Source of the DNA: Gammaproteobacteria bacterium
Lineage (GTDB): Bacteria; Pseudomonadota; Gammaproteobacteria; Pseudomonadales; Azotimanducaceae
Direction: 5' to 3'
DNA: 39,165 bases
Assembly (NCBI GenBank): GCA_026705345.1
Contig: JAPPAV010000059.1
Span: forward strand, 1-39,165
Shown here: piece by piece, positions 3,405 to 29,027 of the stretch
How positions within the stretch are numbered: the stretch's first letter is position 1
Layout: each line of letters starts with the position of its first letter
Notes under the pieces: model-generated
Told to the model about the DNA's origin: nothing
Seen by the model: only the letters and a program-made list of their open reading frames with translations
Database searches by the model: none
Translations under genes and position numbers: made by a program

Positions 3405-3411
3405 CCCCCTC

Positions 3412-4353: not shown

Positions 4354-4419
4354 GCCTGGTCCTCCCCACGATTCTCGGTTCATTGTGTCAGCACCGGCGA
4401 CGAATGTCGCCGTGCGAGG

Positions 4420-5409: not shown

Positions 5410-5467
5410 CTCGGACTCTCCGTCAAAACCGGATGCACTATGCTAACAACGCGACGGGGCACGGGCG

Positions 5468-5878: not shown

Positions 5879-5982
5879 TCGGGAACCACTCCATCCGCCA
5901 CCGATTGCGTGTGCCGAATCGGCGCTTTCCGTCTATGCTTACGCGCTTTGCCCAGCGACGCCCACGCTAGGAGGAAGACCGG

Positions 5983-7056
5983 ATGCTCGAACGGTTCAAG
6001 GTTCCGGAGGACGTCGCGGTTCGCGTCCCCCACGCGACCATGCGCCAAGCCGTGGAGGCCATTTTCAGCGCCCTGGGCATGACCGAATCGGATGCCGCGA
6101 AGTGCGCGGATCCATTGATCTACGCGGACGTGCGCGGCATCGATTCCCACGGCGTCAGCAACATGATGCGCGCCTACGTCGCCGGTCTGAAAGGCGGCTA
6201 CATCAACCCGACGCCTGCCATGGACCGAGTGCGCGACTTCCCGGCCGCCGTCTCGGTGGACGGCGATCGGGGGCTCGGGCTCGGCCAAGGCAAGGAACTC
6301 ATGCAACTGGCCTGCGAGCGCGCCAAGGACAACGGCGTCGGGGTTGTGACCGCGTTCAACAGCGGCCACTACGGCGCAGCGGCCTACTACGCCCACCTCG
6401 CCCTCGAACACGACATGGTCGGCGTGTCCATGACCTCCGGCGGCTTGCAAGTGGCACCCACCCAAGGCGCCGAACCGCTGCTGGGCCTGAATCCCCTTGG
6501 CATTGCGGCCCCGTCGAACCAAGAGCCGCCGTTCATCTTCGACGCCTCGATGAGTTCCGTCGCCGGCAACAAGATTCAGCTCTTGCGGAGACTCGGCAAC
6601 AAGGTCCTGCCCGGTTGGATCACCGACGCCGAGGGCGCGCCGGTGATGGACGAGGTCGACGTGCCGGACCGGTACCTGATGCTTCCCCTAGGCGGAACCC
6701 GGGACATCGGCTCGCACAAGGGCTTCGGCCTATCGATGCTCGTCGAGATTCTCTGCAAGACGCTGCCGGGGACCGGCGCCGGCCCGCACCGCCGCCAAGG
6801 CTCCGGGCACTACTTCATGGCCTACAACATCGCCGCGTTCGCCGACGTCGACGTATTCAAGGCGGACATGGATGCCTATCTGCGCTCGATCCTCGACTGC
6901 AAACCCGCGCCGGGCGAGTCGCGGGTGGTCTACGCGGGCTTCCCCGAACACGAAACCGAGATCGACCGGCGCGCGAACGGCATCCCGTACCACCCGGAAG
7001 TGATCCAGTGGTTCAAGGACGTCATGGAGCAACTGGAGATCGCCTCGCCGTTGTAG
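5983..7056 (+). CDS. Ldh-family oxidoreductase (malate/L-lactate/ureidoglycolate dehydrogenase type)
   Basis: NAD(P)-dependent dehydrogenase of the Ldh_2 family (PF02615), 357 residues, a fold unrelated to classical malate dehydrogenases. Members oxidise malate, L-sulfolactate, ureidoglycolate or 2,3-diketogulonate. Family motifs are visible: DVRGIDSHGV with the catalytic His (residue 56), the nucleotide-binding NSGHYGAAAYYA, and GTRDIGSHKGFGLSMLVE. The start is ATG 5983, with a strong AGGAGGAAG ribosome-binding site. It is probably part of the same hydroxyacid-use neighbourhood as the TRAP system and D-2-hydroxyacid dehydrogenase. The substrate is not decidable from sequence. Confidence 0.9.
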   Translation: MLERFKVPEDVAVRVPHATMRQAVEAIFSALGMTESDAAKCADPLIYADVRGIDSHGVSNMMRAYVAGLKGGYINPTPAMDRVRDFPAAVSVDGDRGLGLGQGKELMQLACERAKDNGVGVVTAFNSGHYGAAAYYAHLALEHDMVGVSMTSGGLQVAPTQGAEPLLGLNPLGIAAPSNQEPPFIFDASMSSVAGNKIQLLRRLGNKVLPGWITDAEGAPVMDEVDVPDRYLMLPLGGTRDIGSHKGFGLSMLVEILCKTLPGTGAGPHRRQGSGHYFMAYNIAAFADVDVFKADMDAYLRSILDCKPAPGESRVVYAGFPEHETEIDRRANGIPYHPEVIQWFKDVMEQLEIASPL

Positions 7057-7307
7057 CGGCAGCCGCGACGTCACCGGGCTGCCAACGACTTGCCCCCGGC
7101 CCACGCCGGTTCACCTCATTCGACGGTCTCAATGCGTTCGATGCCGCCGAACGCGATCCGACCCTGCTCGGCGCCCCCTCACGCCGGGCGAGACTCCGGC
7201 ACCTTGGAGCGGCACCGGACGTCGAGAAGCTGGAAAGTCCTCTCCGCGCCAGATCCTCCAGAAGGGGATGCCGTGGCGCGCGAGTTGGGATCCTCGGGTC
7301 GAACGCC

Positions 7308-9431: not shown

Positions 9432-10120
9432 CTTTGCTCCTCCATGGCGCTGACGATTCCTCGGTACTTGTCGATGTTCTCTTGCCTATTCGACCCCGTG
9501 TAGCGGTCTATGAAGTAGTCAAGCCTTCGGCGTGCGATGTCCAAGACGCTGAGTTCTCTCCGCCCCGCACGGACCATCAGGTCGACGTTGGTGCCACCCT
9601 CCAGCAGGGCCATTACGCACTCAACGTGGCCGTCGCCCAACGCTTGCACGACCGGCGGGAAGACGGAGTTGCCGTTCGGATCGGCACCCGCTTGCAACAA
9701 CGCCTTGATCGCGCCCACATAACAACCAATCACCGCGAGATTCAGGGCAGTCCCTTTGACGCCCCAAGGTTGCGGCAGGATTACGACGGCGTCGACATCA
9801 ACCACACCCGTTTCGGTGAGAAGCCTGATCATTGCCGCCCGTCCATCCATAGCTGCTAGCTGGACGGGGGTCATTCCCCGATCTACCCTACCTTCTCTTC
9901 GATTGAGCAGATCCTTGAGGCCCGGCTCGCCGCGACGTTCCTCCGCGATTGCCATCAACCGTTCAACGCGTTCTAAGTCATTGGCCTTGACGGCATCGTG
10001 GATCTGATCACCCATTGTGTTGACTGCGACCACTAGCATCAGCGAGGCGAGCAGTGCTGTGTAAACGTGCGCGGGCAGCTTCCACACGCTCATATCGGAT
10101 TGTCTACATGGTTTTGTCAT
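9428..10120 (-). CDS. Exported or membrane-anchored ankyrin repeat protein
   Basis: A 230-residue protein. The start chosen is ATG 10120 because GAGGAG lies 6 nt upstream; the frame stays open further upstream without a good start. A hydrophobic segment (about residues 16-34, HVYTALLASLMLVVAVNTMG) should be a signal or anchor. About four ankyrin repeats follow: DQIHDAVKANDLERVERLM, GMTPVQLAAMDGRAAMIRLL, TALNLAVIGCYVGAIKALLQAGADPNG and VVQALGDGHVECVMALLEGG. Ankyrin repeats mediate protein-protein contacts. The gene is first in a two-gene operon with the FG-GAP/FGE protein (4-bp overlap), so the two products probably meet in the envelope. Partner and role are unknown. Confidence 0.82.
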   Translation of the reverse strand: MTKPCRQSDMSVWKLPAHVYTALLASLMLVVAVNTMGDQIHDAVKANDLERVERLMAIAEERRGEPGLKDLLNRREGRVDRGMTPVQLAAMDGRAAMIRLLTETGVVDVDAVVILPQPWGVKGTALNLAVIGCYVGAIKALLQAGADPNGNSVFPPVVQALGDGHVECVMALLEGGTNVDLMVRAGRRELSVLDIARRRLDYFIDRYTGSNRQENIDKYRGIVSAMEEQR

Positions 10121-10742
10121 TTGCTTCTCCTCGGGGTTCGTTCCGTTCCTTGTGTTGCGCAGATCTTTCACGGGCTGCGCGGGGCCGCAAACAAACAGAA
10201 AAGCAGACAACCGAAAGCTCGCCAGCTTAGTAAATGAGTAGGAGGCACAACACACTGCGATCAGTCACCCCACGTCACTTCTCTACAGTCTCTTCACCCG
10301 CACGATCCCCCAACGCGAACCATCAATGACCAACATCGCAAACGCACCACCCATTTGAGGGGGGTCAGCTGCGCGCAAACCTTGATAGGGTTGCCGCGAC
10401 CCCCACAAGGTGCCGGGCCGTTTGCAAGTATCTCCGGGATTCCAAGAGTTCCCGCCTATTCGCCGAGCGTCGATTTAGCTACTCCTCTTGCCGGATGTGG
10501 CTGTTGTATTCAGCGGGTGGCCCGACTCGCGGGCAGCCCAGAAATACTTGCGAGACCCACCGTAGCCGAGGTCCAACGCGACATGAGACTGAACCGCTAG
10601 TGCGATTCCAACGCAAAGTGAGCCTCATGTGGGCGTGTCGGGGATCTGGAGATGATCGTGGCACTTCAAACCCGAACGGATTCGGACCATGGAGCAGGTC
10701 GCCGCCTTCGTCGTACGCTGGCCAAGCGATGTCTTCGGGAGC
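10121..10742. other. 622-bp intergenic region of the accessory island
   Basis: I see no credible gene here. It holds the presumed promoter of the ankyrin/FG-GAP operon (AT-rich stretch about 10185-10260) and the first copy of the long direct repeat (10345-10573). Open frames across 10495-10742 are antisense shadows without ribosome-binding sites or recognisable domains. Confidence 0.6.
10345..10573. repeat. Long direct repeat, copy 1
   Basis: About 229 bp that recur at 12587-12812 in the same orientation with roughly 85-90% identity by eye and a few small indels. The most conserved part is about 10503-10572, around GGGTGGCCCGACTCGCGGGC. Each copy ends about 210-225 bp upstream of the start of a minus-strand operon (ankyrin here, FHA for copy 2). 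It could be a shared regulatory region, a duplication scar, or a dispersed intergenic element. Confidence 0.85.
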
Positions 10743-11879
10743 TCATTTCCCAATTGGTGCGTTCACCGTCTCTTGCCCGTCACGGAGTTCCGACCGCCAA
10801 GCTACCCGGAAGGCATGTTCGTGGAAGCGGACCCCATCGCCGGGCCGCAATAGGCTTTTCTCGATCCGGGTACCGTTTACCCAGGTGCCGTGTGTGGATC
10901 CGAGATCCGTTAGCAGCAATCGCCCGTCCGAGAAGGTCTCAAGCATGGCATGGACACGCGAAACGGAAGGATCGTCGAGGCTCAAGCCGCCGACCACGTC
11001 CCGACCGATCAGCAACTCGTTTCCGATGTCTATCACCTCGCCCCGATTCGGTCCATTGGATCCCAATAGGCACCAAGAATCGTCGGAATCGGGTAACACC
11101 CTGATCGAGACCTGTCGCGGTTCCGGCGATGCCGGGGGGTCTTTCGCAAATGGTGGTAACAGTTCATCGGACGACGCTGACGGTTCTTCTGGCACAAGAT
11201 CCTCCGATTCCGCCGCAGTATCGCTGGGCTTCGCCTTGTCACGTCTGACTACACCGTACTGTTTGAGTATCCCGGTAATCACGATGGCGACGAAGACTAA
11301 CGCCGCGACGACCAGCCGTCCGGTCGTGTCGACGAGACTCCGCGAGAAGGTGTCGAGCAATCGGTACACGGACCCCGCCACGAGCGCCGCGCCGCTGACC
11401 GCGAATCCGATGATCAGGAACAGCTCGTAGATCAGTTTGGCGACGACGGCACCCAACACGCCAGCCGCCAGAGGAACGATGAGACCTGCGTCCTCTGGTT
11501 GCATCCAGATAAACGCGGCCGCGAACCCCACGAGGAATCCGAGTCCAACCGGGATGAGATAGGCGCACGCGAGCAGAACGAAGCCGCCGACAATACCCAA
11601 GATCAAGGCTCCTGCGGCCCCTCCGATCAGAGCGCCGAGCACGCCCCCGAGCACAGCGCCAAGCAGGAAAACCAGCACTTTGTAGATTTTCAGTCCGTAG
11701 TAGGCTGACAAAAGGCCGACGACGATGCTCACCGCCGAGACGATCAGCACATGCAGTTCAATAGTCGAGGTGATGAGTTCGTCCACGGCGTCGAACGCGT
11801 CTTCCAAATCACGCAAGATGGAATTGAACTCGACGAGTGCAAGCGGCATGGGCGTGCCCTGCGAATGGGCGGCACTCAC
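10743..11879 (-). CDS. Polytopic membrane protein (DUF4203/TMEM198-like) with C-terminal FHA domain
   Basis: A 378-residue protein if started at GTG 11879, which overlaps the upstream FHA gene stop (GTGA); ATG 11849 is the alternative. Residues about 35-210 contain six to eight hydrophobic helices rich in Gly and Ala, resembling DUF4203/TMEM198 membrane domains. A charged, proline-rich linker (about 215-265) follows. The C-terminal FHA domain (about 285-360) shows the phosphothreonine-binding landmarks: GRD (IGRDVVGG), SRVHA, and GSTHGTWVNG. The FHA part should be cytoplasmic and dock a phosphorylated partner at the membrane. No Ser/Thr kinase or phosphatase lies in this window. Its operon partner is the small FHA protein. 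Confidence 0.82.
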   Translation of the reverse strand: MSAAHSQGTPMPLALVEFNSILRDLEDAFDAVDELITSTIELHVLIVSAVSIVVGLLSAYYGLKIYKVLVFLLGAVLGGVLGALIGGAAGALILGIVGGFVLLACAYLIPVGLGFLVGFAAAFIWMQPEDAGLIVPLAAGVLGAVVAKLIYELFLIIGFAVSGAALVAGSVYRLLDTFSRSLVDTTGRLVVAALVFVAIVITGILKQYGVVRRDKAKPSDTAAESEDLVPEEPSASSDELLPPFAKDPPASPEPRQVSIRVLPDSDDSWCLLGSNGPNRGEVIDIGNELLIGRDVVGGLSLDDPSVSRVHAMLETFSDGRLLLTDLGSTHGTWVNGTRIEKSLLRPGDGVRFHEHAFRVAWRSELRDGQETVNAPIGK

Positions 11880-12379
11880 ATCATCGCCCAAAGATGGTTC
11901 CGCGCGTAGGATTCGGATCCCCAAGCGGGTTCTCCGCCCCATCGCCCGACCGAATTCCGGCTAGGTAGAACGTATACAGACACGGAATGGTCAGCAGTAG
12001 TATGGATACCCCGATGGTGGAACGAAGGTGCGTCGCGCCCAAGACGAATGTCCAATTGGAACAAAGCCACAGGGCCGAGTTCAGTCGACCGCTGAACCTC
12101 GGCATCTGTGACCTCCAAGTGCGTGTTCCCGATCTCGAGTGTGCACCAGGCCTTGAGCTGTGCGCGTTCGCGGAGGCGGCGCCCATCAACTGCGGTCCCG
12201 TTCGTCGAACCAAGATCCCCGATCGACACGACGCGACCGTCGTTTAGGATCACCGCGTGGAATTCGGATACCGAGTCATCCGCCGAAACTACGTTATTGG
12301 CGTGGTCGCGACCGATCGAGATACGTTCCTTGGCCAGTTCCCCTATTGTCTCATCCTGTTGGTTCTTGAGCAGTAGCAT
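11876..12379 (-). CDS. FHA-domain protein, possibly frameshifted before its membrane segment
   Basis: A 167-residue frame. Residues 1-91 are a clear FHA domain, with IGRDHANNVV, SEFHAVI and GDLGSTNGTAVDGRRL, so it should bind phosphothreonine peptides. After about residue 92 the annotated frame becomes polar and unstructured. The neighbouring frame on the same strand, from about 12110 down to its stop at 11881, encodes a convincing transmembrane helix (VSILLLTIPCLYTFYLAG). This suggests a natural frameshift or a sequencing error that moved a membrane anchor out of frame. The start is ATG 12379 with a GGAGGGG ribosome-binding site. It overlaps or abuts the second FHA gene. Confidence 0.72.
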   Translation of the reverse strand: MLLLKNQQDETIGELAKERISIGRDHANNVVSADDSVSEFHAVILNDGRVVSIGDLGSTNGTAVDGRRLRERAQLKAWCTLEIGNTHLEVTDAEVQRSTELGPVALFQLDIRLGRDAPSFHHRGIHTTADHSVSVYVLPSRNSVGRWGGEPAWGSESYARNHLWAMM

Positions 12380-14384: not shown

Positions 14385-14843
14385 ATGGCCGAAATCGAGT
14401 CCAAATCCGACGCCACGGCAGGGGAGATCGCCCGGCAGCACCGCGACCGGGTGGGCGGCGTACTCATCGCACTTCGTGAGATCGTGGGGCGTTTCGGGTA
14501 CGTAAGCCGAACCCAGGAGCACGATGTCGCCGACGTGTTCAACCTGAGCCGCGCCGAGGTGCGCGGCATCGTGTCCTTCTATCACGACCTCAAGACGAAG
14601 CCCCAGCCATCGGTACGTGTGCGGGTCTGCCAAGCGGAGGCCTGCCAGTCCGTGGGCGCGCGGGAACTCACCAAGCGCGTCGAGTCGCACCTTGGCGTCA
14701 AGCTCGGCGAGATGACGGACGCCGTGTCGCTTGACGCCGTCTACTGCCTAGGCCTCTGCGCCCAGGCACCCTCGATGATGGTCAACGGACGACCGCTGGC
14801 CCGGGCCGACCTGTGCGATCTGGCCGAGCAGATCCCGGCATGA
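14385..14843 (+). CDS. fdsG: NAD-dependent formate dehydrogenase gamma subunit FdsG
   Basis: Electron-transfer subunit of the soluble molybdenum formate dehydrogenase, related to NuoE/24-kDa subunit of complex I, 152 residues as is usual. A thioredoxin-like fold carries one [2Fe-2S] cluster through Cys82 and Cys87 (VCQAEAC) and Cys121 and Cys125 (CLGLC). It passes electrons between the FdsB flavin module and the FdsA iron-sulfur chain. It is first of the operon fdsGBA-fdhD-mobA. Its stop overlaps the fdsB start by 4 bp. The ribosome-binding site is weak; the start at ATG 14385 fits the family N-terminus. Confidence 0.94.
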   Translation: MAEIESKSDATAGEIARQHRDRVGGVLIALREIVGRFGYVSRTQEHDVADVFNLSRAEVRGIVSFYHDLKTKPQPSVRVRVCQAEACQSVGARELTKRVESHLGVKLGEMTDAVSLDAVYCLGLCAQAPSMMVNGRPLARADLCDLAEQIPA

Positions 14844-16321
14844 CCACCGCCTTCGTACCCCTCGATACCGCAGCGGTCGCCGCCGGCGCCGATGCCGTGG
14901 CTGCCGCCGTCGCGGACAACGGCACCGAGATCGTTCGCAACGGTTCAAGGGGCATGTGTTGGGCAGAGCCGACGATGGAAATCGAGTACGCCGGTACGCG
15001 CCTGGCATTCGGCAATGTTGCGGCCCCCGATGTTCCAAGCATCTTCCAACAGCACGAACAACATGCAAAATGCCTGGGCGAGGTTTCCGAGATCGACTAC
15101 CTGCAACGCCAAACCCGGGCGGTCTTCGATCGCGCCGGCACTTCCCATCCGCTCGAACTGCCGAAGACCACCGTCCTCGAGGAGTGCTTGGAACGCGATC
15201 CCGAGTCCCTGATCGCCGAGATCGAAACGTCCGGGCTACGCGGACGCGGCGGTGCGGGGTTTCCCGCCCACATCAAGTGGCGCACCGTGTTCGACACACC
15301 CGGGGAGCAGAAGTACATCGTCTGCAACGCCGACGAGGGTGATTCCGGCACCTTCGCGGACCGGATTCTCATGGAGGGCGATCCCTACCGTCTGATTGAA
15401 GGGATGACCCTCGCGGGCTTGGCCACCGGCGCGACGAAGGGGTACGTGTACCTGCGTTCCGAATACCCCATTGCCGCCGGCATCTTCCAGGCCGCGTTGG
15501 ACGATGCGTACGCGGAAAACCTGCTCGGGACCGATATCCTCGGCAGCGGCAAGGCCTTCGACCTCGAACTCTTCATCGGCGCCGGTGCCTACATCTGCGG
15601 CGAGGAGACCTCGCTGCTCGAAAGCCTCGAAGGAAAGCGCGGCGAGATCCGCGTCAAACCCCCCGTTCCCGCCATCAGCGGGCTGTTCGGCGCACCGACG
15701 CTCGTTCACAACGTCATTTCCTTTGCCGCAGTGCCCGCAATCATGGGGAACGGGGGCGCTTGGTACGCCGATCTGGGCGTCGGCCGCTCGACCGGAACGA
15801 TGGCGTTCCAGCTCGCGGGCAACGTCCAGCGGGGCGGCCTCATCGAGGTGCCCTTCGGAATCACCATCGACGAGATCGTCAACGGCTTCGGCGGCGGCAG
15901 CCGCAGCGGCCGACCGATCCGCACGATCCAGATCGGCGGTCCACTCGGGGCGTACCTCAAGCCCGAGGAGTTCGACACACCCCTCACCTACGAGGCCATC
16001 GCCGAACTGGGCGCCGGCATTGGCCACGGCGGCATCGTGGTATTCGACGACACCGTCGATCTGGCGCGGCAAGCGCACTACGCCTTCGAGTTCTGCGAGG
16101 TCGAATCATGCGGCAAGTGCACGCCGTGCCGGCTCGGTTCGGTGCGCGGCAAGGAGACCATGAGCGGGATCATCGACGGTCGCGATGTCGAGCAGAAATT
16201 GACTATTATTGAAGACCTTTGCGAGGTGATGGAGACCGCCAGCCTGTGCCAGATGGGCGGCATGACGCCCATTCCGGTGTTGAGTGCGATCAAGCGGTTC
16301 CCGGAGGACTTCCGGCGATGA
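14840..16321 (+). CDS. fdsB: NAD-dependent formate dehydrogenase beta subunit FdsB
   Basis: Flavin subunit that reduces NAD+ with electrons from formate, related to NuoF, 493 residues. Residues 1-90 are a degenerate thioredoxin-like extension. The FMN/NAD site follows: GRGGAGFPAHIKW (near 135-147), NADEGDSGTFADR, and GAGAYICGEETSLLESLEGK. The [4Fe-4S] cluster ligands are Cys414, Cys417 and Cys420 (SCGKCTPCR) with Cys460 (SLCQMGG). ATG 14840 overlaps the fdsG stop, and its own stop overlaps fdsA by 4 bp. The unbroken overlaps imply equimolar synthesis of the three subunits. Confidence 0.95.
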   Translation: MTTAFVPLDTAAVAAGADAVAAAVADNGTEIVRNGSRGMCWAEPTMEIEYAGTRLAFGNVAAPDVPSIFQQHEQHAKCLGEVSEIDYLQRQTRAVFDRAGTSHPLELPKTTVLEECLERDPESLIAEIETSGLRGRGGAGFPAHIKWRTVFDTPGEQKYIVCNADEGDSGTFADRILMEGDPYRLIEGMTLAGLATGATKGYVYLRSEYPIAAGIFQAALDDAYAENLLGTDILGSGKAFDLELFIGAGAYICGEETSLLESLEGKRGEIRVKPPVPAISGLFGAPTLVHNVISFAAVPAIMGNGGAWYADLGVGRSTGTMAFQLAGNVQRGGLIEVPFGITIDEIVNGFGGGSRSGRPIRTIQIGGPLGAYLKPEEFDTPLTYEAIAELGAGIGHGGIVVFDDTVDLARQAHYAFEFCEVESCGKCTPCRLGSVRGKETMSGIIDGRDVEQKLTIIEDLCEVMETASLCQMGGMTPIPVLSAIKRFPEDFRR

Positions 16322-19209
16322 CCATATCGGTCCCCGACTTCGGCACACCGCCGGTGGTGCGCTACGCCGATCCGGCGCGACGCCTGGACGGCAACGGCAC
16401 CACGCCGGCTATTTCCAACGGCGTCGAATACGTCGATGTCACCATCGACGGCGCGCCGATCCGGGTCGCCGCCGGCACGTCCATCATGCGCGCCGCCCGC
16501 GAGGCGGGCCTCGATATCCCCAAGCTCTGCGCCACCGACAACCTCAAGGCGTTCGGTTCCTGCCGGGTGTGCCTGGTGGAGGTGGAGGGTCGACGGGGCC
16601 TGATCGCGTCCTGTACCGAACCCGTGCAGGAGGGCATGGTCGTCCGCACCCAGACCGAGCAGGTCGCCAGGGTTCGGCGGGGGGTGATGGAACTCTACAT
16701 ATCCGACCACCCGTTGGACTGTCTGACCTGTCCCGCCAACGGCGACTGCGAGCTGGAGACCGTTGCCGGCGCCGTGGGTCTCCGGGATGTCCGCTACGAC
16801 GACGGTGCCAACCACCTGGACGCGGTGGCCGATACCTCCAACCCGTATTTCCAGTTCGATCCGTCGAAATGCATCGTCTGTTCGCGCTGCGTACGCGCCT
16901 GCGACGAGGTCCAGGGCACCTTCGCGCTGACCATCGACGGGCGCGGTTTCGGTTCCAAGGTGGCGACCAGCGATGACACCTTCTTCGACTCGGAGTGCGT
17001 GTCGTGCGGCGCCTGCGTACAGGCCTGCCCTACCGCCACCTTGATCGAGAAGTCGGTGGTCGACCACGGGGTGCCGGATCGCAGCGTGGACACCACCTGC
17101 GCGTATTGCGGGGTGGGCTGCTCGTTCCGGGCCGAGGTCAAGGGCGACGTGGTGGTCCGCATGGTCCCGCACAAGGACGGCAAGGCGAACCACGGGCATT
17201 CCTGCGTCAAGGGCCGTTTCGCCTGGGGCTACGCCAACCACCGGGAACGGATCACCACGCCGATGATCCGAGAGACCATCGACGATCCCTGGCAGGAGGT
17301 GGGTTGGGAAGAGGCCATCGACTACGCCGCCAAGCGGTTGAAGGGTCTCCAGGAGAAATACGGCCGAACATCGATCGGCGGCATTACGTCGTCTCGCTGC
17401 ACCAACGAGGAGGTCTGGGTGGTGCAGAAGATGGTGCGAGCGGCGTTCGGCAACAACAACGTCGATACCTGCGCCCGGGTGTGCCACTCCCCCACCGGCT
17501 ACGGACTCCGCCAGACCTACGGCACGTCCGCCGGGACACAGGACTTCGACTCGGTGGCGGACGCCGACGTCATCGTCGTCATCGGCGCCAATCCCACCGA
17601 AGGACACCCGGTGTTCGCATCGCAGATGAAGCGCCGTCTCCGGGAGGGCGCAAGCCTGGTCGTCTGCGACCCGCGCCGAATCGACTTGGTGCGCACGCCG
17701 CACATCGAGGCCGCGCATCACCTGGCGCTTCAGCCCGGAACCAACGTCCCGCTGATGAACGCCTTCGCCCACGTCGTGGTCACCGAGGGTTTGATCGACC
17801 ACGACTTCGTCGCCGAGCGTTGCGACACCGGGTCGTTCCGGGACTGGCTCGAATTCGCCCGCGACCCGGCAAACGCACCGGAGAACGTCGCCGACATTCT
17901 GGGCGTACCCGCGGCGGACATCCGTGCGGCCGCCCGTCTCTACGCGACGGCCCGCAACGCCGCGATCTACTACGGTCTCGGCGTTACCGAACACAGCCAG
18001 GGTTCCACCATGGTCATGGCCATGGCCAACCTCGCCATGGCCACGGGCAATATCGGGCGCCCCGGCGTCGGCGTGAACCCGCTGCGCGGCCAGAACAACG
18101 TCCAGGGCTCCTGCGACGTCGGCTCGTTCCCCCACGAGTTCTCCGGCTACCGGCCCGTGGCCGACGACGCCGTCCGCGCCGAATTCGCCGCGCACTGGAA
18201 TGTCGAACTCGATGCCGAGCCGGGTCACCGGATCCCGAACATGCTGGACGAAGCCTGCGCGGGAACCTACAAGGGCATCTACATTCAGGGCGAGGACATC
18301 GCCCAGTCCGATCCGAACACCCAGCACGTGGAGGCGGCGCTCGGCTCCATGGAATGCGTCATTGTCCAGGATCTGTTCCTGAACGAGACCGCCAAGTTCG
18401 CCCACGTCTTCCTGCCCGGTTCGTCGTTCCTCGAGAAGGACGGCACCTTCGTCAATGCGGAACGACGCATCAACCGGGTTCGCGCCGTGATGCAATCCAA
18501 GGCGGGCCTGCAGGAGTGGCAGGCGACCCAAGCGCTGGCAACCGCCATGGGCTACCCGATGGACTACTCCTCGGTGGAGGAGATTCTCGCCGAGATCGCC
18601 GAACTCACCCCGATCTTCGCCGGCGTCACCTTCGACCTCCTGGACCGCGAAGGCAGCGTGCAGTGGCCGTGCAACGATGAGGCGCCGACCGGCACACCGG
18701 TCATGCACGAGGAACAGTTCGTACGCGGCAAGGGCTTGTTCGTCCCTACCGAATACCAACCGACGCCCGAACGCGCCAACCGCAAGTTCCCGCTGCTACT
18801 TACCACCGGTCGGATACTCACCCAGTACAACGTGGGTGCCCAGACCCGCCGTACGGACAACATCGAGTGGCTCGACGAGGACGTCCTGGAGATCCACCCG
18901 GCGGATGCCGAGACCCGCGGCGTGCGTACCGACGACTGGGTCTCGGTCGCCAGTCGCATCGGGGAAATCACGCTTCGGGCCAAGGTCACGACCCGTGTCG
19001 CGCCGGGGGTGGTCTACACGACCTTCCACCATCCTCAGACGGGTACCAACGTGGTGACCACCGAGTTGTCCGACTGGGCCACGAACTGCCCGGAATACAA
19101 GGTGACCGCAGTGGAGGTCCGACCGGCGAATCATCGCTCCGAGTGGCAGGATCGCTTCGCCGAGCGCGCCCGGGACCAGGCCGAGGCGTTGGCCGCGGCG
19201 GGTAGCTAA
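16318..19209 (+). CDS. fdsA: NAD-dependent formate dehydrogenase alpha (catalytic) subunit FdsA
   Basis: Molybdenum bis-MGD subunit that oxidises formate to CO2, 963 residues. An N-terminal [2Fe-2S] domain (Cys71, Cys82, Cys85, Cys99) is followed by a His131/Cys135/Cys138/Cys144 cluster and two ferredoxin-type [4Fe-4S] sets (Cys185-195 and Cys227-237). A further proximal cluster uses Cys251, Cys254, Cys258 and Cys286. The active-site pair is Cys379-His380 (ARVCHSPTGYGL), so the Mo ligand is Cys rather than selenocysteine. The cofactor-binding GVGVNPLRGQNNVQGSCDVG and C-terminal molydopterin dinucleotide domain (from about 840) are intact. There is no Tat signal, so the complex is cytoplasmic. 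Confidence 0.96.
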   Translation: MTISVPDFGTPPVVRYADPARRLDGNGTTPAISNGVEYVDVTIDGAPIRVAAGTSIMRAAREAGLDIPKLCATDNLKAFGSCRVCLVEVEGRRGLIASCTEPVQEGMVVRTQTEQVARVRRGVMELYISDHPLDCLTCPANGDCELETVAGAVGLRDVRYDDGANHLDAVADTSNPYFQFDPSKCIVCSRCVRACDEVQGTFALTIDGRGFGSKVATSDDTFFDSECVSCGACVQACPTATLIEKSVVDHGVPDRSVDTTCAYCGVGCSFRAEVKGDVVVRMVPHKDGKANHGHSCVKGRFAWGYANHRERITTPMIRETIDDPWQEVGWEEAIDYAAKRLKGLQEKYGRTSIGGITSSRCTNEEVWVVQKMVRAAFGNNNVDTCARVCHSPTGYGLRQTYGTSAGTQDFDSVADADVIVVIGANPTEGHPVFASQMKRRLREGASLVVCDPRRIDLVRTPHIEAAHHLALQPGTNVPLMNAFAHVVVTEGLIDHDFVAERCDTGSFRDWLEFARDPANAPENVADILGVPAADIRAAARLYATARNAAIYYGLGVTEHSQGSTMVMAMANLAMATGNIGRPGVGVNPLRGQNNVQGSCDVGSFPHEFSGYRPVADDAVRAEFAAHWNVELDAEPGHRIPNMLDEACAGTYKGIYIQGEDIAQSDPNTQHVEAALGSMECVIVQDLFLNETAKFAHVFLPGSSFLEKDGTFVNAERRINRVRAVMQSKAGLQEWQATQALATAMGYPMDYSSVEEILAEIAELTPIFAGVTFDLLDREGSVQWPCNDEAPTGTPVMHEEQFVRGKGLFVPTEYQPTPERANRKFPLLLTTGRILTQYNVGAQTRRTDNIEWLDEDVLEIHPADAETRGVRTDDWVSVASRIGEITLRAKVTTRVAPGVVYTTFHHPQTGTNVVTTELSDWATNCPEYKVTAVEVRPANHRSEWQDRFAERARDQAEALAAAGS

Positions 19210-19229
19210 AGCCCAAACGCCCGGATCAC

Positions 19230-20099
19230 GTGGCGACATTCGAGACCGACCGATCGAGCCCGGCGGCGCCGCCGCAGAGCCTGCGCGTGGACGTGGCCTT
19301 TCATGGGCGCGAAACCGACGAGGTGACCGATCTGGTCACCGTCGAGGAGCCGATGGAGATCCGGCTTGGGCTGGCGACCGGGGAAGGAACCACGGAGCAG
19401 AGCATTTCGGTCACCATGCGCACCCCGGGCGATGACTTCGACCTGGCCATCGGGTTCCTCTACACCGAAGGGGTGATTCGCAACCGCGCCGACATCGACC
19501 ATGTCGAATACGGCGATGCGCCGAGTGCCGACAAGGGCCTCTACAACGTGGTCAGGGTGACCCTGGCCGAGAGAGTCCGTTTCGATGCCGCGAGCCTCGT
19601 GCGGCACTTCTTCACGTCCTCAAGCTGCGGCGTTTGCGGCAAGGCGTCGCTCAATGCGGTTCGCATTCAATTGCCCGAGGGGGAACGCGACGCCTTCGAG
19701 ATCGCCGCCGCCGACCTCCACCGACTACCGGAGGCGCTGCGCGCGAGCCAAACCGAGTTCGACCGCACGGGTGGGCTCCATGCATCGGCGTGTTTCGACG
19801 CCAAGGGACGGATCCGCCGCATTCGAGAGGATGTCGGACGTCACAATGCCTTGGACAAGCTGATCGGTTCCTACCTCGTGGCGCCTCGGCCGCTCGCGGG
19901 TCTCGGCATCCTGCTCTCCGGTCGCGCCAGCTTCGAGTTGATCCAGAAAGCCGCCATGACCCGTGCCGCGTTCGTCGCCGCGGTGGGTCCCCCGTCCAGC
20001 CTGGCCGTCGAACTCGCCGAGGAACTCGGCATTACCCTGGTCGGATTCCTGAAGGCGGATACCTTCAACGTCTATGTCGCACCGCAGCGCATCGTCTGA
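19230..20099 (+). CDS. fdhD: Formate dehydrogenase accessory sulfurtransferase FdhD
   Basis: Maturation factor that passes sulfur from a cysteine desulfurase to the molybdenum cofactor of formate dehydrogenase, which makes the enzyme active; 289 residues. The CxxC motif that carries the persulfide is at Cys133-Cys136 (SSSCGVCGK). Family landmarks DFDLAIGFLYTEGVI, EDVGRHNALDKLIG and LSGRASFELIQKAAM are present. It starts at GTG 19230, 20 bp after fdsA, and overlaps mobA at its 3' end by 26 bp. Confidence 0.95.
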   Translation: MATFETDRSSPAAPPQSLRVDVAFHGRETDEVTDLVTVEEPMEIRLGLATGEGTTEQSISVTMRTPGDDFDLAIGFLYTEGVIRNRADIDHVEYGDAPSADKGLYNVVRVTLAERVRFDAASLVRHFFTSSSCGVCGKASLNAVRIQLPEGERDAFEIAAADLHRLPEALRASQTEFDRTGGLHASACFDAKGRIRRIREDVGRHNALDKLIGSYLVAPRPLAGLGILLSGRASFELIQKAAMTRAAFVAAVGPPSSLAVELAEELGITLVGFLKADTFNVYVAPQRIV

Positions 20100-20685
20100 T
20101 CCAACCGAACTGCCCGGCATCACCGCCATCATCCTTTGCGGCGGGCGCGCGACGCGGCTCGGCGGAATCGAAAAACCCCTAGCTGACCTGGGCGGCAAGT
20201 CTCTTCTCGCACACGTGATCGCGCGGTTGGAACCCCAGGTCGACTCGATCGTGCTGTCCGTTGGACGCGGTTCCGCGCACTACGGTGGATTCGGCTACCC
20301 GGTCGTGGTCGACGACGATCCGGACCAAGGACCCCTCGCGGGCATCGTCTCCGCCCTGGCGGTAGTAGCTACTCCCTGGACCCTCACCACCCCGGCAGAC
20401 ACGCCGTTTATTCCAGCGAACCTTGTCCATGCCCTGGCGCCTTCCTGCCACGAGCGCGGCGCAGCGGTTGTCTCGGCAGGCGGACATCGTCAGAACCTAA
20501 CCATGCTCCTCGACGAAGAGCAGACGGCATCGCTTGGGGAGTTCTATCGGGTCGGCGGCCGCGCCGTCCACCGTTGGCTCGTCGCCGGCGGTGTCGAGGA
20601 GGTCGCTTTCCCGGAGGACGGCTTCTTGAACATCAACACCCCCGAAGACCTTGGCCTCGCGCTGTCGGAACTGGACCGTCGTTGA
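20074..20685 (+). CDS. mobA: Molybdenum cofactor guanylyltransferase MobA
   Basis: Attaches GMP to molybdopterin to make the MGD cofactor that FdsA needs; 203 residues. The nucleotide-binding loop ILCGGRATRLGGIEKPL (LxGGxxxRxGxxK pattern) is near the N-terminus. DDDPDQGPLAGIVSAL and the TTPADTPF metal/GTP site (the family's DxP element) follow. The ATG at 20074 lies inside fdhD, so translation is coupled. Having mobA directly in a formate dehydrogenase operon makes the unit nearly self-sufficient for cofactor completion. Confidence 0.92.
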   Translation: MSHRSASSDPTELPGITAIILCGGRATRLGGIEKPLADLGGKSLLAHVIARLEPQVDSIVLSVGRGSAHYGGFGYPVVVDDDPDQGPLAGIVSALAVVATPWTLTTPADTPFIPANLVHALAPSCHERGAAVVSAGGHRQNLTMLLDEEQTASLGEFYRVGGRAVHRWLVAGGVEEVAFPEDGFLNINTPEDLGLALSELDRR

Positions 20686-23909: not shown

Positions 23910-26900
23910 ATGACGTGCTATCGAGCCACACCCGCGTCGAACTCGCGACTCCGAGTTCTACGGCAGCTAGTCACATCGAGGTGTATTCCGCTCGGCGTAG
24001 CCATCGCCGGCGCGTCATCTGCCGTATCGGCCAATGCCGAAGATCACCTGGTGGGGTTGGTCCCCGCCGCATCGGACACGATTCGCCAGGGTTTCGTGCG
24101 CGTCATCAATCACGGCGAGGAACCGGGCGAGGTCACCATCGACGCCGTCGACGACCAGGGCAATGTCCACGGACCCCTCACGTTGTCCATCGGCGCCGGC
24201 GAAACCATCCACTTCAATTCGGATGACTTGGAAAGTGGCAATGCCAACAAGGGCTTGAGCGGGAGCACCGGAACCGGCGAGGGCGACTGGCGGTTGGACC
24301 TGACCAGCGATCTGGACATTGAGGTTCTGGCCTACATTCGCACCCAGGATGGTTTCCTGACCGCGATGCACGACCTGGTGCCCCAGACCGACGAGGAATA
24401 CCGGGTGGCCACCTTCAATCCGGGTCGCAACGTGAACCAAGTGAGTCGCCTCCGCTTGATCAACCCCGGGGACACTGACGCCACGGTGACGGTCTACGGC
24501 ATCGACGGCAGCGGCATGCGATCGGACGACGTACAGGCAACCGTGCCGGCCGGTGCCGCGCGCACGTACTCTGCCGCGCAGTTGGAGAACGGTGGCGACG
24601 GGCTGACTGAAAAAATGGGCTCCGGAAGCGGCAAGTGGCAACTTTACCTCAGCGCCGATCAGCCGATTCACGCTTTGAGTCTGTTGCAGAGCCCGACTGG
24701 CCATCTGACCAACCTGTCCACCACGCCCGAAAACGACGGGGACATTCATGCCGTGCCGATGTTCCCGCCCAACATCGAGGGCGGACCGCAGGGTTTCGCG
24801 CGGGTCATCAACCGCGGCGACACGGCAGGCGAAGTGGCCATCGCGTCCTTCGACGACGACGGCACGGAGTACGGCCCCCTCACCCTCGCGATCGAGGCCA
24901 ACGAGACGGTTCACTTCAATTCGAAGGACTTGGAAGCTGGCAACGAAGCCAAGGGTCTCGCTGGAACCGGATCGGGAGTGGGCGATTGGCGCCTGGAACT
25001 CACCAGCGACCTCGACATCGAGGTGTTGGCGTACGTCCGCACCCCGGACGGATTCCTGACCGCCATGCACGACACCGCGCCCAGCGCCGAGACCCGGCAC
25101 CGGGTGGCCGTGTTCAATCCGGGCTCCAACATCAACCAGTTGAGCTGGCTGCGGATCCTCAACCCCGACACCGTGGCCGCAGCCATCGACATCACCGGCA
25201 TCGACGATGCAGGCGAGTATTCGGACTACCTGGTCCGGATCGATGTGCCCCCCGGCGGCAGCAGGTCGCTGGACGCCGGAGAACTCGAAGACTTGGGGCT
25301 CGGCGACGGTCGCGGCAAGTGGCAGCTGATCGTCGAGTCGGAACAGCCGATCATTGCAATGAGCCTGCTGGCGACGCCGACGGGGCACCTGACCAACCTG
25401 TCGACGGCACCCGGCGGCGCAGTCCTGCCGGACACTGCCGAGGATGTGTTCTCGGAGTCCGTTTCGCAGACCGTGGTGCAAGAAAACTGCATCGGTTGCC
25501 ACACGGAGGGTGGCCGGTCCGGCCACACACGGCTCGTGTTCGTAGACTCCTCGAACTCCGATCATCTCGAACGAAACCTCGCGCAGTTCCAGAATCTCCT
25601 CGGCGAAGTCGACCGGCGGTACATCCTTGACAAGATCAACAACGTAAGCGGGCACGGCGGAGGCATCCGCATCGAGCGCGACTCGGAAACCTACAGGACA
25701 CTTGAGCGTTTCCTGGTTCTTCTGCAGGGCGAACTGCGCCGCGCAGCCGGTCCCGTCGAGGTCGTGCAAGCCCCCGTGCCGGAAGGCATCGGCCATCCCG
25801 TGTTCGCGAGCCCGCACGCGAGGCCCATCGCCACCCTGGGCGACTTCGTCTACGTGGCGAACACGCCAAGCGACACGGTGGACGTCATCAATGCGGAGGA
25901 GCGCACGCTCGTCAACCGGATCAACGTGGGCATCGATCCCGTCAGCGTCGTGCCCCGGTCGGACGGTCTCGAAATCTGGGTCGCGAACCACGTCTCGGAC
26001 ACGGTCAGCGTCATCGACACGGACCCCGGCAGCCCGACGTTCCAGAACGTTGTCGCCACCGTACAGGCCGTCGACTCGGTCAATCTATCCACCGACTTCG
26101 ACGAACCCGTAGGCATCGCCTTTGCCGGCAACGAAAAGGCCTACGTGGCCCTCGGTCCCGCCAACGAGATCGCGGTGGTCGACGTCGAGACGCGCAACGT
26201 GAGCAAGCGCCTGCCGATCCGTGCCCAGGATCCCCGGGCCATCGCGGTGCGCGGCGAGCGGCTCTACGTGGTCGCCTTCGAGTCGGGCAACAAGAGCCAG
26301 CTCTCGGGATGTTTCGCGGGCGAGATCGGTCGCGACGGCTGCACCTTCGACGCCGTCGAGCACGTCTTCTCCAACAACAACGTCCTGTCGCTCAACTACG
26401 ATGCCGACATCACAGAGGACGACGCCGTACCCGACCGGGACCTCTTCGTGTTCGATACCACGACGGACGAGCTCCAAGCGGTGGTGGAAGGCGTTGGAAC
26501 ATTGCTCTACGGCATCGCCGTGGACAGCGACGGTCGGGTCTTCGTCGCGCAGACCGATGCCCGTAACACCGCCAACGGCCTCGCCGGCAGCGAAGGCCAC
26601 GGCATGGCCGAGATGGAGAACCGGGCGTTCCTGAATCAGATCACCCGCGTCGACTGCGGGGCCGACTCCGGTTGCGAGGCGCCGATCCGCTTCGATCTCG
26701 AACCGGTGCCGCCGGATCATCCTGACCCGGAAGACTCGCTGGCGACTCCGTTCGGCATCCGGGTCAGCGAGGACGACGCCACGCTCGTGGTGACCGCGGC
26801 CGGTTCGGACAAGCTGTTCACCGTCGATGCACAAAGCGGCGAGGTCCTCGGCAGCGTGGATGTCGAGAACGTACCCCGAGGCGTCGCGTTGGTCTCAGGC

Positions 26901-29027
26901 GCAAACGGCCAACCCATCGGCGCCTGGGTACTCAATGCCGTGGCGAACTCGGTTTCCGCGGTGGATCTCTCGTCGTTGGATGCGCCAACGGTCACACAAA
27001 CCATTGCTCTCGACGATCCCACCCACCCCGTTGTCAAGCAGGGCCGGATGGCGTTCAACGACGCCCACGCCTCGACAACCGGGACGTTCTCCTGCGAGAG
27101 CTGCCATCCGGACAATCACACCGATCAGCTGATCTGGATTCTCCAGACGCCGCCCTGCGAGGGAGCCCTAGACGAGGACGGCGAAGAACAATGCGTGGAC
27201 CAGGTCCCGCCCCGGCTCACCATGCCCGCCAAAGGGTTGCGCGACACCCAGCCCTACCACTGGGACGGCATCCCCGGCGATCCCTACGGCGGCATCAACA
27301 CCGCCTCCATCAACGCGACGGTGGAACCCAATTGCAGCGAGGACGACCCGGAGTCCTGCACACGCTTCCTCGTCGACGGCTCGCTGGCGACGACGATGTG
27401 CGATGTCAGTTCGGGTGCCTGCCCGCACGCCAACGACGAAGGCAAGGCGGGGTTGCTGGATGCGCAGGACCGCGACGCCCTGGCCACCTACCTCCTGAGC
27501 GTTCCCTTCCCGCCCGCCCAGAAACGTCCGTTCGACAACGAACTGACCCAGATGGGCCGGGACGGCATCTTCGAGTTCAGTTTCATCATCGACTCGGGCC
27601 AAGGCACCGGCGCGCAGACCTGCGGCGACTGCCACCGGATGCCGTTCCTGGTCACCCCCAACACGCCGGGCACCGGCATGGACGCGCCAACGTGGCGGGG
27701 CGCCTACGACCGCTTCCAGATCACCCCACAGGCCCGGACCAACGTCATCGACCTGATGTACCTGGCGTTCCGCCACAACGGCGCCGAGCCGCAGCCCGCA
27801 TTCAACGAGCGCTTCTACTTCGAAGAGGAGGACATCTGGGATCTCGGCGGCGCATCGCCCGAGGTGTGGCAGATGGTCCTCCAGAACAGCACGGGCTTCT
27901 CCGGCAGCTTCGGCCGGCAGGTGACCCTGAACCAAGACACCGCGGATGCGTCGCTCACCGAACAACTGCTCGATGCGTTGGAACTGTCCGGCGAGGAAGG
28001 CGGAATCATCCTGCAGGGCGAGGGGGTCTTGATGGAGGATGACGGTGCAGGCCCGTTGGCCGTCGAATTCAGCAACGGCGCCTACCGGACCCGCGACGGC
28101 AGCGAGTCGTTCGACCGTTCGGAGTTGGTGCAGTTGGCCGCCGACGGCGAGCTGGTGCTGACCATCACCGGGCGAACGGGCGCCAACATCGACAAGCACA
28201 TGCAGCCCGGATTGTGGCCGGTGGCGCCGATTCACCGGCAATCCCGAAACGTGCACCTCGCCTTCCTAGACGACAGGAAACTGCGCATCAACGCCAGGCA
28301 CATCCAGGAGGACGCGTCCCTCCATCTGAACGGTCGGCGGGTCGATGGGCGCGTGGAGTGCGAACACGGGACGCTGCCCTACTGCTCTGGCGAGATCGCG
28401 ATCGTGGAACTCGACGAAGCGCCCCCCGGCGGCCTGCACTTCCTGCAGATCCAGAATCCCCAAGGGCTCTTCAGCAATGACATGATGTTCTTCAACGACG
28501 ACCTGGAGTCCATGCCTTCCGCGGGCAACCGGAACCTCATCAGCAGCGGCGGCGAGTTCAACCGGATCCGGTTCGACCGCCACAACTGGAACTTCGTCAA
28601 CGTGGACAACGTGGTCGGGAATATTGACTGGGGTCGGGGGGAAGTGAACATCCCGATCAATCGGTCTTCGCCTACGCGTTGGCACGCGCAGATCAGCCAT
28701 GCGGTACCAGTGGTCGGCGGGCAGACCTACACGCTGTGCTACGACGCCAAGTCCAACGAGGGGCCCAGACAAATGCGGGCGTACACCGACACGAATATGG
28801 ACAACTGGCGGAATACCAGCGGCGGCCAGTTCACGGTGAACCTGACGACGTCCTACCAGCAGTTCACCCACACGTTCACCATGGCCGAAACAGACCTTAG
28901 AGGTCGGGTTGCATTCGACCTCGCCGAAAGCCCCAACGACGTCCAGATGGACAACATCGGCCTCTACGAAGGCACCGAGTGCGGCGATCCGGCGAAACAG
29001 CCAGGGATGTTCCCGGGCGTCCCGTAG
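23910..29027 (+). CDS. Exported 1705-residue three-haem beta-propeller protein with carbohydrate-binding-like C-terminus
   Basis: I recognise the parts but not the whole. A signal peptide (cleavage likely after SANA, residue 43) directs export. Residues about 61-509 are two copies of a 234-residue beta-rich module (GFVRVINHG/GFARVINRG to PTGHLTNLST). A first c-type haem site CIGCH is at 527-531. A YVTN-type beta-propeller runs from about 637 to 1050, with blades such as FVYVANTPSDTVDVINAEE. Two more haem sites follow, CESCH (1062-1066) and CGDCH (1238-1242), around a cytochrome-peroxidase/oxidase-like region. The last 180 or so residues resemble a CBM4/9-type jelly roll. The start is ATG 23910 behind AAGGAGGG. 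The stop TAG lies in a REP foot. A periplasmic or surface redox role is inferred. Confidence 0.85.
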   Translation: MTCYRATPASNSRLRVLRQLVTSRCIPLGVAIAGASSAVSANAEDHLVGLVPAASDTIRQGFVRVINHGEEPGEVTIDAVDDQGNVHGPLTLSIGAGETIHFNSDDLESGNANKGLSGSTGTGEGDWRLDLTSDLDIEVLAYIRTQDGFLTAMHDLVPQTDEEYRVATFNPGRNVNQVSRLRLINPGDTDATVTVYGIDGSGMRSDDVQATVPAGAARTYSAAQLENGGDGLTEKMGSGSGKWQLYLSADQPIHALSLLQSPTGHLTNLSTTPENDGDIHAVPMFPPNIEGGPQGFARVINRGDTAGEVAIASFDDDGTEYGPLTLAIEANETVHFNSKDLEAGNEAKGLAGTGSGVGDWRLELTSDLDIEVLAYVRTPDGFLTAMHDTAPSAETRHRVAVFNPGSNINQLSWLRILNPDTVAAAIDITGIDDAGEYSDYLVRIDVPPGGSRSLDAGELEDLGLGDGRGKWQLIVESEQPIIAMSLLATPTGHLTNLSTAPGGAVLPDTAEDVFSESVSQTVVQENCIGCHTEGGRSGHTRLVFVDSSNSDHLERNLAQFQNLLGEVDRRYILDKINNVSGHGGGIRIERDSETYRTLERFLVLLQGELRRAAGPVEVVQAPVPEGIGHPVFASPHARPIATLGDFVYVANTPSDTVDVINAEERTLVNRINVGIDPVSVVPRSDGLEIWVANHVSDTVSVIDTDPGSPTFQNVVATVQAVDSVNLSTDFDEPVGIAFAGNEKAYVALGPANEIAVVDVETRNVSKRLPIRAQDPRAIAVRGERLYVVAFESGNKSQLSGCFAGEIGRDGCTFDAVEHVFSNNNVLSLNYDADITEDDAVPDRDLFVFDTTTDELQAVVEGVGTLLYGIAVDSDGRVFVAQTDARNTANGLAGSEGHGMAEMENRAFLNQITRVDCGADSGCEAPIRFDLEPVPPDHPDPEDSLATPFGIRVSEDDATLVVTAAGSDKLFTVDAQSGEVLGSVDVENVPRGVALVSGANGQPIGAWVLNAVANSVSAVDLSSLDAPTVTQTIALDDPTHPVVKQGRMAFNDAHASTTGTFSCESCHPDNHTDQLIWILQTPPCEGALDEDGEEQCVDQVPPRLTMPAKGLRDTQPYHWDGIPGDPYGGINTASINATVEPNCSEDDPESCTRFLVDGSLATTMCDVSSGACPHANDEGKAGLLDAQDRDALATYLLSVPFPPAQKRPFDNELTQMGRDGIFEFSFIIDSGQGTGAQTCGDCHRMPFLVTPNTPGTGMDAPTWRGAYDRFQITPQARTNVIDLMYLAFRHNGAEPQPAFNERFYFEEEDIWDLGGASPEVWQMVLQNSTGFSGSFGRQVTLNQDTADASLTEQLLDALELSGEEGGIILQGEGVLMEDDGAGPLAVEFSNGAYRTRDGSESFDRSELVQLAADGELVLTITGRTGANIDKHMQPGLWPVAPIHRQSRNVHLAFLDDRKLRINARHIQEDASLHLNGRRVDGRVECEHGTLPYCSGEIAIVELDEAPPGGLHFLQIQNPQGLFSNDMMFFNDDLESMPSAGNRNLISSGGEFNRIRFDRHNWNFVNVDNVVGNIDWGRGEVNIPINRSSPTRWHAQISHAVPVVGGQTYTLCYDAKSNEGPRQMRAYTDTNMDNWRNTSGGQFTVNLTTSYQQFTHTFTMAETDLRGRVAFDLAESPNDVQMDNIGLYEGTECGDPAKQPGMFPGVP
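24090..25412 (+). repeat. Intragenic tandem module (2 x 234 residues) in the haem protein
   Basis: Residues 61-275 and 295-509 of the large protein align without long gaps. Shared blocks include RVIN.G, GPLTL.I.A.ET.HFNS.DLE, GDWRL.LTSDLDIEVLAY, DGFLTAMHD, FNPG.N.NQ.S.LR and PTGHLTNLST. Each copy itself has two similar halves, so four beta domains are likely. This points to an extracellular adhesive or spacer stalk. Confidence 0.85.

Follow-up and report, generated by a model that had tools for sequence, protein, structure and literature searches.

A hydrazine synthase-like propeller and di-haem core joined to a reused N-terminal module in a predicted exported protein of the Azotimanducaceae

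Introduction

What kind of protein joins three c-type haem motifs, a beta-propeller, tandem N-terminal modules and a carbohydrate-binding-like end in one chain, and which of these parts are peculiar to its lineage? The question is raised by the open reading frame (ORF) at 23910..29027 on the plus strand of contig JAPPAV010000059.1 (assembly GCA_026705345.1, an uncultured gammaproteobacterium of the family Azotimanducaceae); the whole stretch of 39,165 nucleotides that was analysed is referred to below as the window. A preliminary description of the window had read the product as a giant exported redox protein with stalk modules and had put it forward as the best candidate there for an undescribed system. 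We report here that the propeller and di-haem core belongs to a kind of protein that has been reported and is uncharacterised, and that the N-terminal modules are the lineage-specific part, a reused terminal unit rather than a private stalk.

Results

The ORF is a single frame of 1705 residues with an ATG start, in which the layout of the preliminary description was confirmed part by part. A Sec-type signal peptide region (residues 1 to about 43; 23910..24038), called by eye rather than by a predictor and lacking a lipobox in the window copy, is followed by two modules at residues 44-277 (24039..24740) and 278-501 (24741..25412), the 234-residue units described earlier, which are about 57% identical to each other. 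Next come a mono-haem cytochrome domain (residues 507-617; 25428..25760) with CIGCH at 527-531 (25488-25502), a YVTN-type propeller (residues 627-1029; 25788..26996) and a di-haem domain (residues 1028-1420; 26991..28169) with CESCH at 1062-1066 (27093..27107) and CGDCH at 1238-1242 (27621..27635). Searches of Pfam, NCBIfam and PDB sequences placed Cytochrom_C at 520-541 and YNCE/YVTN repeats from about residue 645; the propeller passes TIGR02276 with 55 bits against a cut-off of 27.85. The conserved core ends in a beta-rich part (residues ~1421-1530; 28170..28499), after which a carbohydrate-binding module (CBM) of family CBM_4_9 occupies residues 1540-1694 (28527..28991). This jelly roll passes the PF02018 cut-off (27.2 bits versus 25.9, residues 1584-1672), in agreement with the carbohydrate-binding-like end noted before, and its W1591 and W1633 align with Trp residues of the laminarinase CBM 1gui.

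The three CxxCH motifs are exact in the window protein and are not due to chance, since shuffling its residues yielded a mean of 0.0055 motifs per shuffle (2000 shuffles) and the motifs are conserved. In alignment A1 (22 rows, with L037 entered as two rows and L043 omitted), C1062, C1065 and H1066 are kept in 21/21 rows having a residue there and C1238, C1241 and H1242 in 20/20, which upholds the haem sites of the preliminary description; the CIGCH domain is confined to the 6 long rows. A check of the genome for cytochrome c maturation found that CcmF is encoded.

Residues ~627-1530 form a fusion of the hydrazine synthase beta-gamma type, in which a propeller is followed in one chain by a di-haem domain resembling MauG and cytochrome c peroxidase (CCP). 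Matches to the core profile included the YVTN surface-layer propeller 1l0q (E 1.2e-49) and, more weakly, hydrazine synthase beta (E 1.5e-15). Residues 507-1705 were modelled from the 22-row alignment (mean predicted local distance difference test [pLDDT] score, 61.0); the propeller blades came out well, with loose insertions, and Foldseek placed 1l0q first, followed by the seven-bladed hydrazine synthase beta (E 1.8e-17, TMt 0.77). For the di-haem profile, the best match was hydrazine synthase gamma (E 5.1e-6), followed by two CCP-type enzymes at 0.07-0.08. PF03150 (CCP_MauG) matched 20/20 di-haem rows at E <= 0.1 (best, 2e-6); its cut-off of 25.6 was reached neither by the window di-haem domain (23.7 bits) nor by the whole protein (19.4 bits), in which a weak match covers residues 1043-1069. 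The window protein also falls short of the NCBIfam cut-offs for hydrazine_beta (50.2 of 560 bits) and hydrazine_BC (37.9 of 1250 bits). Hydrazine synthase alpha (PF18582) was not found in the genome by a search that was silent in all 14 controls too. Two other assignments were rejected: L-NosZ (20.6 of 700 bits) and the beta subunit of quinohemoprotein amine dehydrogenase (18.8 of 223.2 bits).

We know of no activity for hydrazine synthase-like beta-gamma fusions outside anammox. Literature searches, which left most subscription journals outside, found nothing on YVTN-propeller/cytochrome c peroxidase proteins in Verrucomicrobia, and, among the matches listed, only PMC12758564, available in part, appeared to treat such fusions. 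In the available text, Hagglund et al. (2025; PMC12758564) describe fused homologues of the beta-gamma-like type as very widespread among environmental bacteria, some clades having extra N-terminal haem motifs (one extra in clade III). Because it matches hydrazine synthase beta and gamma and because such fusions have been reported there, the core is of a reported, uncharacterised kind. The proposal of an undescribed system therefore fails for the core; for the whole chain it stands in so far as no known family matches from end to end.

The conserved residues of the haem domains include several candidate sixth ligands: M1163, M1257 and M1322 are invariant in the di-haem part (20/20 rows), as are H552 and H582 in the mono-haem domain (11/11 rows), and after H1242 no second conserved His was found within the di-haem part of A1. 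The two di-haem CxxCH motifs are 176 residues apart. Trp1118, in an HWDG motif, is likewise invariant (20/20 rows), and we take it to resemble the inter-haem Trp of CCP and MauG. Position 1142 is Cys in 14/20 rows and Ser or Ala in 6/20; by extrapolation beyond the end of the profile alignment, Cys1142 would fall close to where hydrazine synthase gamma has its third haem-linking Cys, and in the window protein a C1142-C1150 disulfide is as likely. Within 1128-1142, the invariant residues are G1128, N1130, P1140 and N1141. In a homologue from another genus of the family (L085, from G023; ORF 2152-6204, minus strand), the second haem site reads CGRVGCH, a CX4CH motif instead of CxxCH.

Each module of about 230 residues consists of two homologous halves (about 44-160 and 161-277 in module 1), which hhalign related with a probability of 99.6% (E 1e-23) in a single comparison of A5 halves; by BLAST, window halves of the same type are 50-63% identical and those of different type 24-32%. 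A single-module model (12 rows; mean pLDDT, 71) matched the Anabaena sensory rhodopsin transducer (ASRT) structure 2ii8 with a Foldseek probability of 1.00 and TMt 0.73-0.74, and the matches ranked above it have TMt <= 0.42 (best 50 of 1051 matches). Among 12 orthologous modules scanned against Pfam at E <= 1, DUF5719 was hit by 12/12 (best 1.1e-7), Slr4 by 11/12 (8.4e-5), ASRT by 8/12 (5.3e-4), and PLipase_C_C and DUF7382 by 5/12 each. For 24 own-genome modules at E <= 0.05, a set that omits a split module of L017, the counts were DUF5719 17, Slr4 4 and ASRT 4. The Pfam models cover parts of the module (e.g., residues 132-198 of module 1). When the 14 module-bearing paralogues were scanned whole, DUF5719 appeared at E <= 0.001 in 5, and its cut-off was passed by L014 (27.0) and L016 (28.3). 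Slr4 (PF19526; cut-off 25) scored at most 23.5 (L016) among the matches listed, and an own-genome Slr4 search at E <= 0.001 gave no match, its controls being silent as well. N24 and N142, each the Asn at the end of strand 2, are conserved in >= 90% of the 24 rows; there is no conserved Trp at the start of strand 1 in A5, where a few rows have one. The modules are best described as DUF5719/ASRT-type beta-sandwiches that resemble the S-layer protein Slr4 more weakly. A literature search on DUF5719 alone, with most subscription journals outside its reach, found nothing.

The modules are not private to this protein. The genome encodes 25 of them (26 matches, one L017 module being split) in 15 proteins, 10 of which have four domains (two modules) and 5 of which have two. 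They lie in the N-terminal part of 9 proteins, with the first module starting at residue 35-171, and at the extreme C terminus of 6, ending 2-13 residues from the end. Their partners include a reprolysin-like protease with leucine-rich repeats (LRR) in L012 and L018, LRR in L017, a calcineurin-like phosphatase (L011), a sorbosone dehydrogenase (L014), a trypsin-like protease (L021), GmrSD_C (L020), PSCyt3 cytochromes (L009 and L010) and a propeller-like protein (L013); no partner family was found at E <= 0.001 in L015, L016, L019 and L022. L015 consists of one module and a mono-haem domain, and the mono-haem domain of the window protein recurs in 5 further ORFs among the own-genome loci retrieved. 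L010 (3257-8377, minus strand; 1706 residues) has a related layout of modules, mono-haem domain, PSCyt3 and CBM60. Since the modules sit on 14 other proteins of the same genome, the earlier reading of them as a stalk of this one needs amending.

Modules were found in 20/58 genomes searched as relatives: the genome of the window itself, 13/15 of the same genus, 6/21 from other genera of the family and 0/21 from other families of the order. Within the family, 51/200 genomes and 10/37 genera have them. None was found in 273 other genomes of a class sample or in 397 of a phylum sample, as judged from the best first-look candidates per genome (e.g., 7 in the phylum sample), so that distant relatives may be missed. 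On one contig (G796:C87:31348-83070), at least 9 modules are spread over several ORFs in a stretch of some 52 kb, which may be a cluster or hot spot.

The core was found in 15/15 same-genus genomes and 5/21 family genomes of other genera (G031 in part), as well as in Verrucomicrobia and other Gammaproteobacteria. Among 21 core loci in the named genomes searched, 5 are long relatives of the same layout with 82-88% identity (L028 is cut by a contig end); the others match from about residue 603-627 onward and are 43-65% identical where they match (L037 is divided between two ORFs; L041 and L043 are incomplete). Among gammaproteobacterial relatives whose end is complete, most retain the CBM, W1591 being present in 10/10 and W1633 in 9/10 of the A1 rows judged from the alignment to bear it. 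In 8 verrucomicrobial rows (L031, L032, L034, L035, L036, L038, L042 and L044), ankyrin-like repeats, by our own reading of the alignment and of DARPin matches, replace the CBM; L040 (Comamonadaceae) ends with neither. In four verrucomicrobial loci (L034, L035, L038 and L044), the core has a sulfatase or pyrroloquinoline quinone (PQQ)-propeller gene beside it or close by, among 10 chosen neighbour ORFs that were annotated, of which 4 had no Pfam match at E <= 1e-5 and 2 are resistance-nodulation-division (RND) efflux proteins. Plasmid carriage found no support: tblastn matches to the core were partial in 20/72,556 records, none covering 80%.

When the best-matching core copy was taken from each of 16 same-genus genomes, the modules and the mono-haem domain were present or absent as one unit, both present in 11/16 and both absent in 5/16. 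Nine of the 16 have the order module-module-mono-haem-propeller-di-haem (G002 is cut by a contig end before the CBM), and two, G009 and G001 (the latter in two ORFs), have module-mono-haem-module-mono-haem-core. In the G009 copy (L075, ORF 1656-7217), two mono-haem domains thus alternate with modules, giving four CxxCH motifs per chain. The five short forms (G005, G007, G008, G010 and G014) lack modules and mono-haem domain and keep the CBM match. Six genomes (G004, G005, G006, G007, G008 and G014) have a second core copy; that of G004, the sole one examined, has neither the N-terminal modules nor the mono-haem domain. Module matches number 8-49 in each of the 11 long-form genomes and 0, 2, 17, 0 and 1 in G005, G007, G008, G010 (74% complete) and G014, G008 being the exception among the short forms. 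In a tree of 23 cores (without G001), the five short forms fall into two well-supported clades within an unresolved radiation, and gain and loss therefore cannot be told apart. Among the cores examined from other genera, the mono-haem domain occurs in G023, there without modules, and both parts are missing from G022, G035 and G036; a CBM match is present in G022 and absent from G023, G035 and G036. The architecture sought on the basis of the preliminary description was recovered within the genus, and none of the other relatives examined (L029-L044, G022, G023, G035 and G036) showed the full combination of modules, mono-haem domain and core.

The gene downstream is on the minus strand, and the 20 window ORFs scanned include genes for formate dehydrogenase, enoyl-CoA hydratase, acyl-CoA dehydrogenase and ATP-binding cassette (ABC) transporters, none of which we take as an operon partner. 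Genes resembling NAD (nicotinamide adenine dinucleotide)-dependent formate dehydrogenase, followed by FdhD and a MobA-like gene, lie at 14813-20685, and formate dehydrogenase-like genes are also found upstream of the core gene in L025, L026 and L028. The stretch at 7308-12379 is lower in G+C content, with values of 0.574 and 0.588 for the bins of 8001-12000 where most bins have about 0.65, and was possibly acquired. Its products include an FGE-sulfatase with FG-GAP, one ankyrin protein and one FHA protein. Opposite the modules, a long open antisense frame (24015-25991, minus strand) shows no sign of being a real gene and is probably a by-product of high G+C content and repeats. The window had no match to an Rfam family at or above that family's gathering score. 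The genome encodes a type II secretin (447 bits, with neighbours in frame, versus a cut-off of 351), and lipobox-like sequences were seen by eye near the start of the G015 copy and of L037. Labels such as RHO and COS occur in the database records of relatives, and the hosts named in the available part of a sponge metagenome-assembled genome study include Rhopaloeides odorabile and Coscinoderma matthewsi (PMC8163846); the lineage is probably sponge associated, if the labels indeed denote these hosts.

Discussion

The reading that we favour, tentatively and with somewhat less than even confidence, is that of a di-haem oxidoreductase with an export signal, in which haem 1 is the reactive site, haem 2 transfers electrons, a third haem acts as a relay and the two ends serve as anchors. 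In this lineage the widely shared core carries, as a single unit, a putative N-terminal tag, the two modules amounting to four tandem DUF5719/ASRT-like beta-sandwiches, and a putative mono-haem relay. The protein would be exported by Sec, its haems would be attached in the periplasm by the Ccm system, and it would then probably be passed to the cell surface or matrix, given the encoded type II secretin. There the four-sandwich tag could hold it in the cell-surface layer, while the CBM, which is also found on untagged copies of the core, could hold polysaccharide. Haem 1 (His1066) would react, haem 2 (His1242) would pass electrons on, and the N-terminal haem may exchange them with a carrier outside the cell or in the periplasm. 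The reaction itself is most likely of the peroxide type or the oxidation of a matrix-bound substrate.

Several observations weigh against this reading. No result places the window protein beyond the periplasm, and the surface display, polysaccharide anchoring and outward electron transfer suggested in the preliminary description are conjectural. The di-haem part was modelled with a pLDDT of <50 over most of its length, too poorly to place the haems. No invariant Glu or Gln was found within 1128-1142, the place of the catalytic residue in CCP. The match of the module to 2ii8 has a Foldseek E value of 0.024 and ranks 45 and 47; window module 1 scores 24.6 bits against a DUF5719 cut-off of 26.2, and a scan of the whole window protein at E <= 1 lists ASRT alone (0.01), with DUF5719 and Slr4 absent. 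Five same-genus genomes and the second copy of G004 have the core without tag and relay, which therefore are not needed for the basic activity. Finally, the gene has no likely operon partner, its neighbours being metabolic and transport genes among others, and within the stretches fetched these recur beside the closest relatives only: of 4 neighbour proteins searched in 20 stretches (about 5-9 kb), 3, namely two enoyl-CoA hydratases and the acyl-CoA dehydrogenase, were found, all of them only in G002, G003, G004, G006 and G011.

One rival reading is a peroxide scavenger, periplasmic or at the surface: a tri-haem variant of bacterial CCP in which the mono-haem domain feeds the di-haem part and the tag and CBM only position the enzyme. 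The CCP_MauG matches across all 20 di-haem rows, the 176-residue spacing, the invariant Trp1118 and the conserved Met1257 and Met1322, which could ligate haem 2, all fit such an enzyme; we nevertheless consider it unlikely, as the window domain remains under the family cut-off (which the best row may exceed), hydrazine synthase gamma is much closer than any CCP-type enzyme among the solved di-haem proteins, and the catalytic Glu/Gln of CCP is not conserved. The shared combination of beta and gamma folds raises the prospect of nitrogen-oxide chemistry resembling that of hydrazine synthase, haem 1 reducing NO or a related N-oxide, to which the extrapolated position of Cys1142 would lend some weight. 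This is improbable in our view: Ser or Ala takes that position in 6/20 rows, the disulfide with C1150 is equally likely in the window protein, the hydrazine cut-offs are far off, and no alpha subunit match was obtained in the genome, though the controls were silent too.

A third possibility, which we regard as quite unlikely, is an oxidase directed at polysaccharide or matrix: the propeller face and the CBM would hold a glycan that the haem site oxidises, making the protein a redox partner of hydrolases. To our knowledge, no sugar-oxidising activity has been ascribed to this fold, which counts against the idea. The CBM matches of G022 and of the five untagged cores from the same genus, together with the conserved W1591 and W1633 and the sulfatase or PQQ-propeller genes near four verrucomicrobial cores, are what such an oxidase would lead one to expect, and similar links between cytochromes, CBMs and sulfatases are described for Verrucomicrobia in the available part of PMC5615132. 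In the verrucomicrobial cores, however, ankyrin-like repeats stand where the CBM would be, L040 has no CBM at its end, three cores from other genera (G023, G035 and G036) have no CBM match, and the neighbour evidence rests on the 10 chosen ORFs, several of them unmatched or efflux proteins.

The window protein shares with the fused beta-gamma-like proteins, as far as the available part of PMC12758564 describes them, the propeller followed by a MauG/CCP-like di-haem part in one chain and, as in some clades, an extra N-terminal haem motif; it differs in its CBM and N-terminal tag and in having no hydrazine synthase alpha match (the control being silent). To judge by conservation, haem 2 is unlikely to take a His as its second ligand, unlike the bis-His haem gamma-II of hydrazine synthase. 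MauG and bacterial di-haem CCP (PF03150) are alike in motif spacing, in the sequence around haem 1 and in an HWDG-like motif, whereas the window copy lies under the Pfam cut-off and has a propeller in front, and their catalytic residues are not conserved in the family of the core. The modules recall the DUF5719/ASRT (ASRAH) superfamily of de Souza et al. (2009) in the beta-sandwich, the Asn at the end of strand 2 and the occurrence of dyads and tetrads, and exported members of that superfamily are predicted to bind sugars in the part of the paper available (PMC2739507). They differ in matching Pfam only partially, in having no conserved strand-1 Trp and in being fused to many enzymes, and window-type modules were not found outside the bacterial family in the samples searched. 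Slr4 of marine Gammaproteobacteria shows a weak sequence match under the cut-off (best E 8.4e-5); it is a lattice-forming S-layer protein, according to the available part of PMC7821379, and the modules here are repeated terminal units on other proteins. Planctomycete-type cytochromes PSCyt1-3, as partially accessible in PMC5615132, also join cytochrome domains to CBMs with sulfatase genes nearby, and PSCyt3 is found in two of the tagged own-genome paralogues; the window protein, whose main part is a di-haem fusion, matches no PSCyt family at E <= 1.

Elsewhere, enzymes are displayed by SLH (S-layer homology) domains and dockerins. It is possible, if doubtful, that the modules serve analogously here, as a shared tag by which the whole lineage displays proteins at its surface, and in which tandem ASRT-like tetrads co-assemble or bind one cell-surface glycan and so hold dozens of unrelated enzymes in an outer layer, haem oxidoreductases with built-in electron relays among them. 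If this is true, the locus would offer a testable case of enzyme display by uncultured, probably sponge-associated Gammaproteobacteria through one reusable module, shared by a phosphatase and by proteases, cytochromes and LRR proteins. It would also add a clearly modular branch to the hydrazine synthase-like beta-gamma fusions, in which the tag and the relay haem, being optional in relatives, should be separable in the laboratory.

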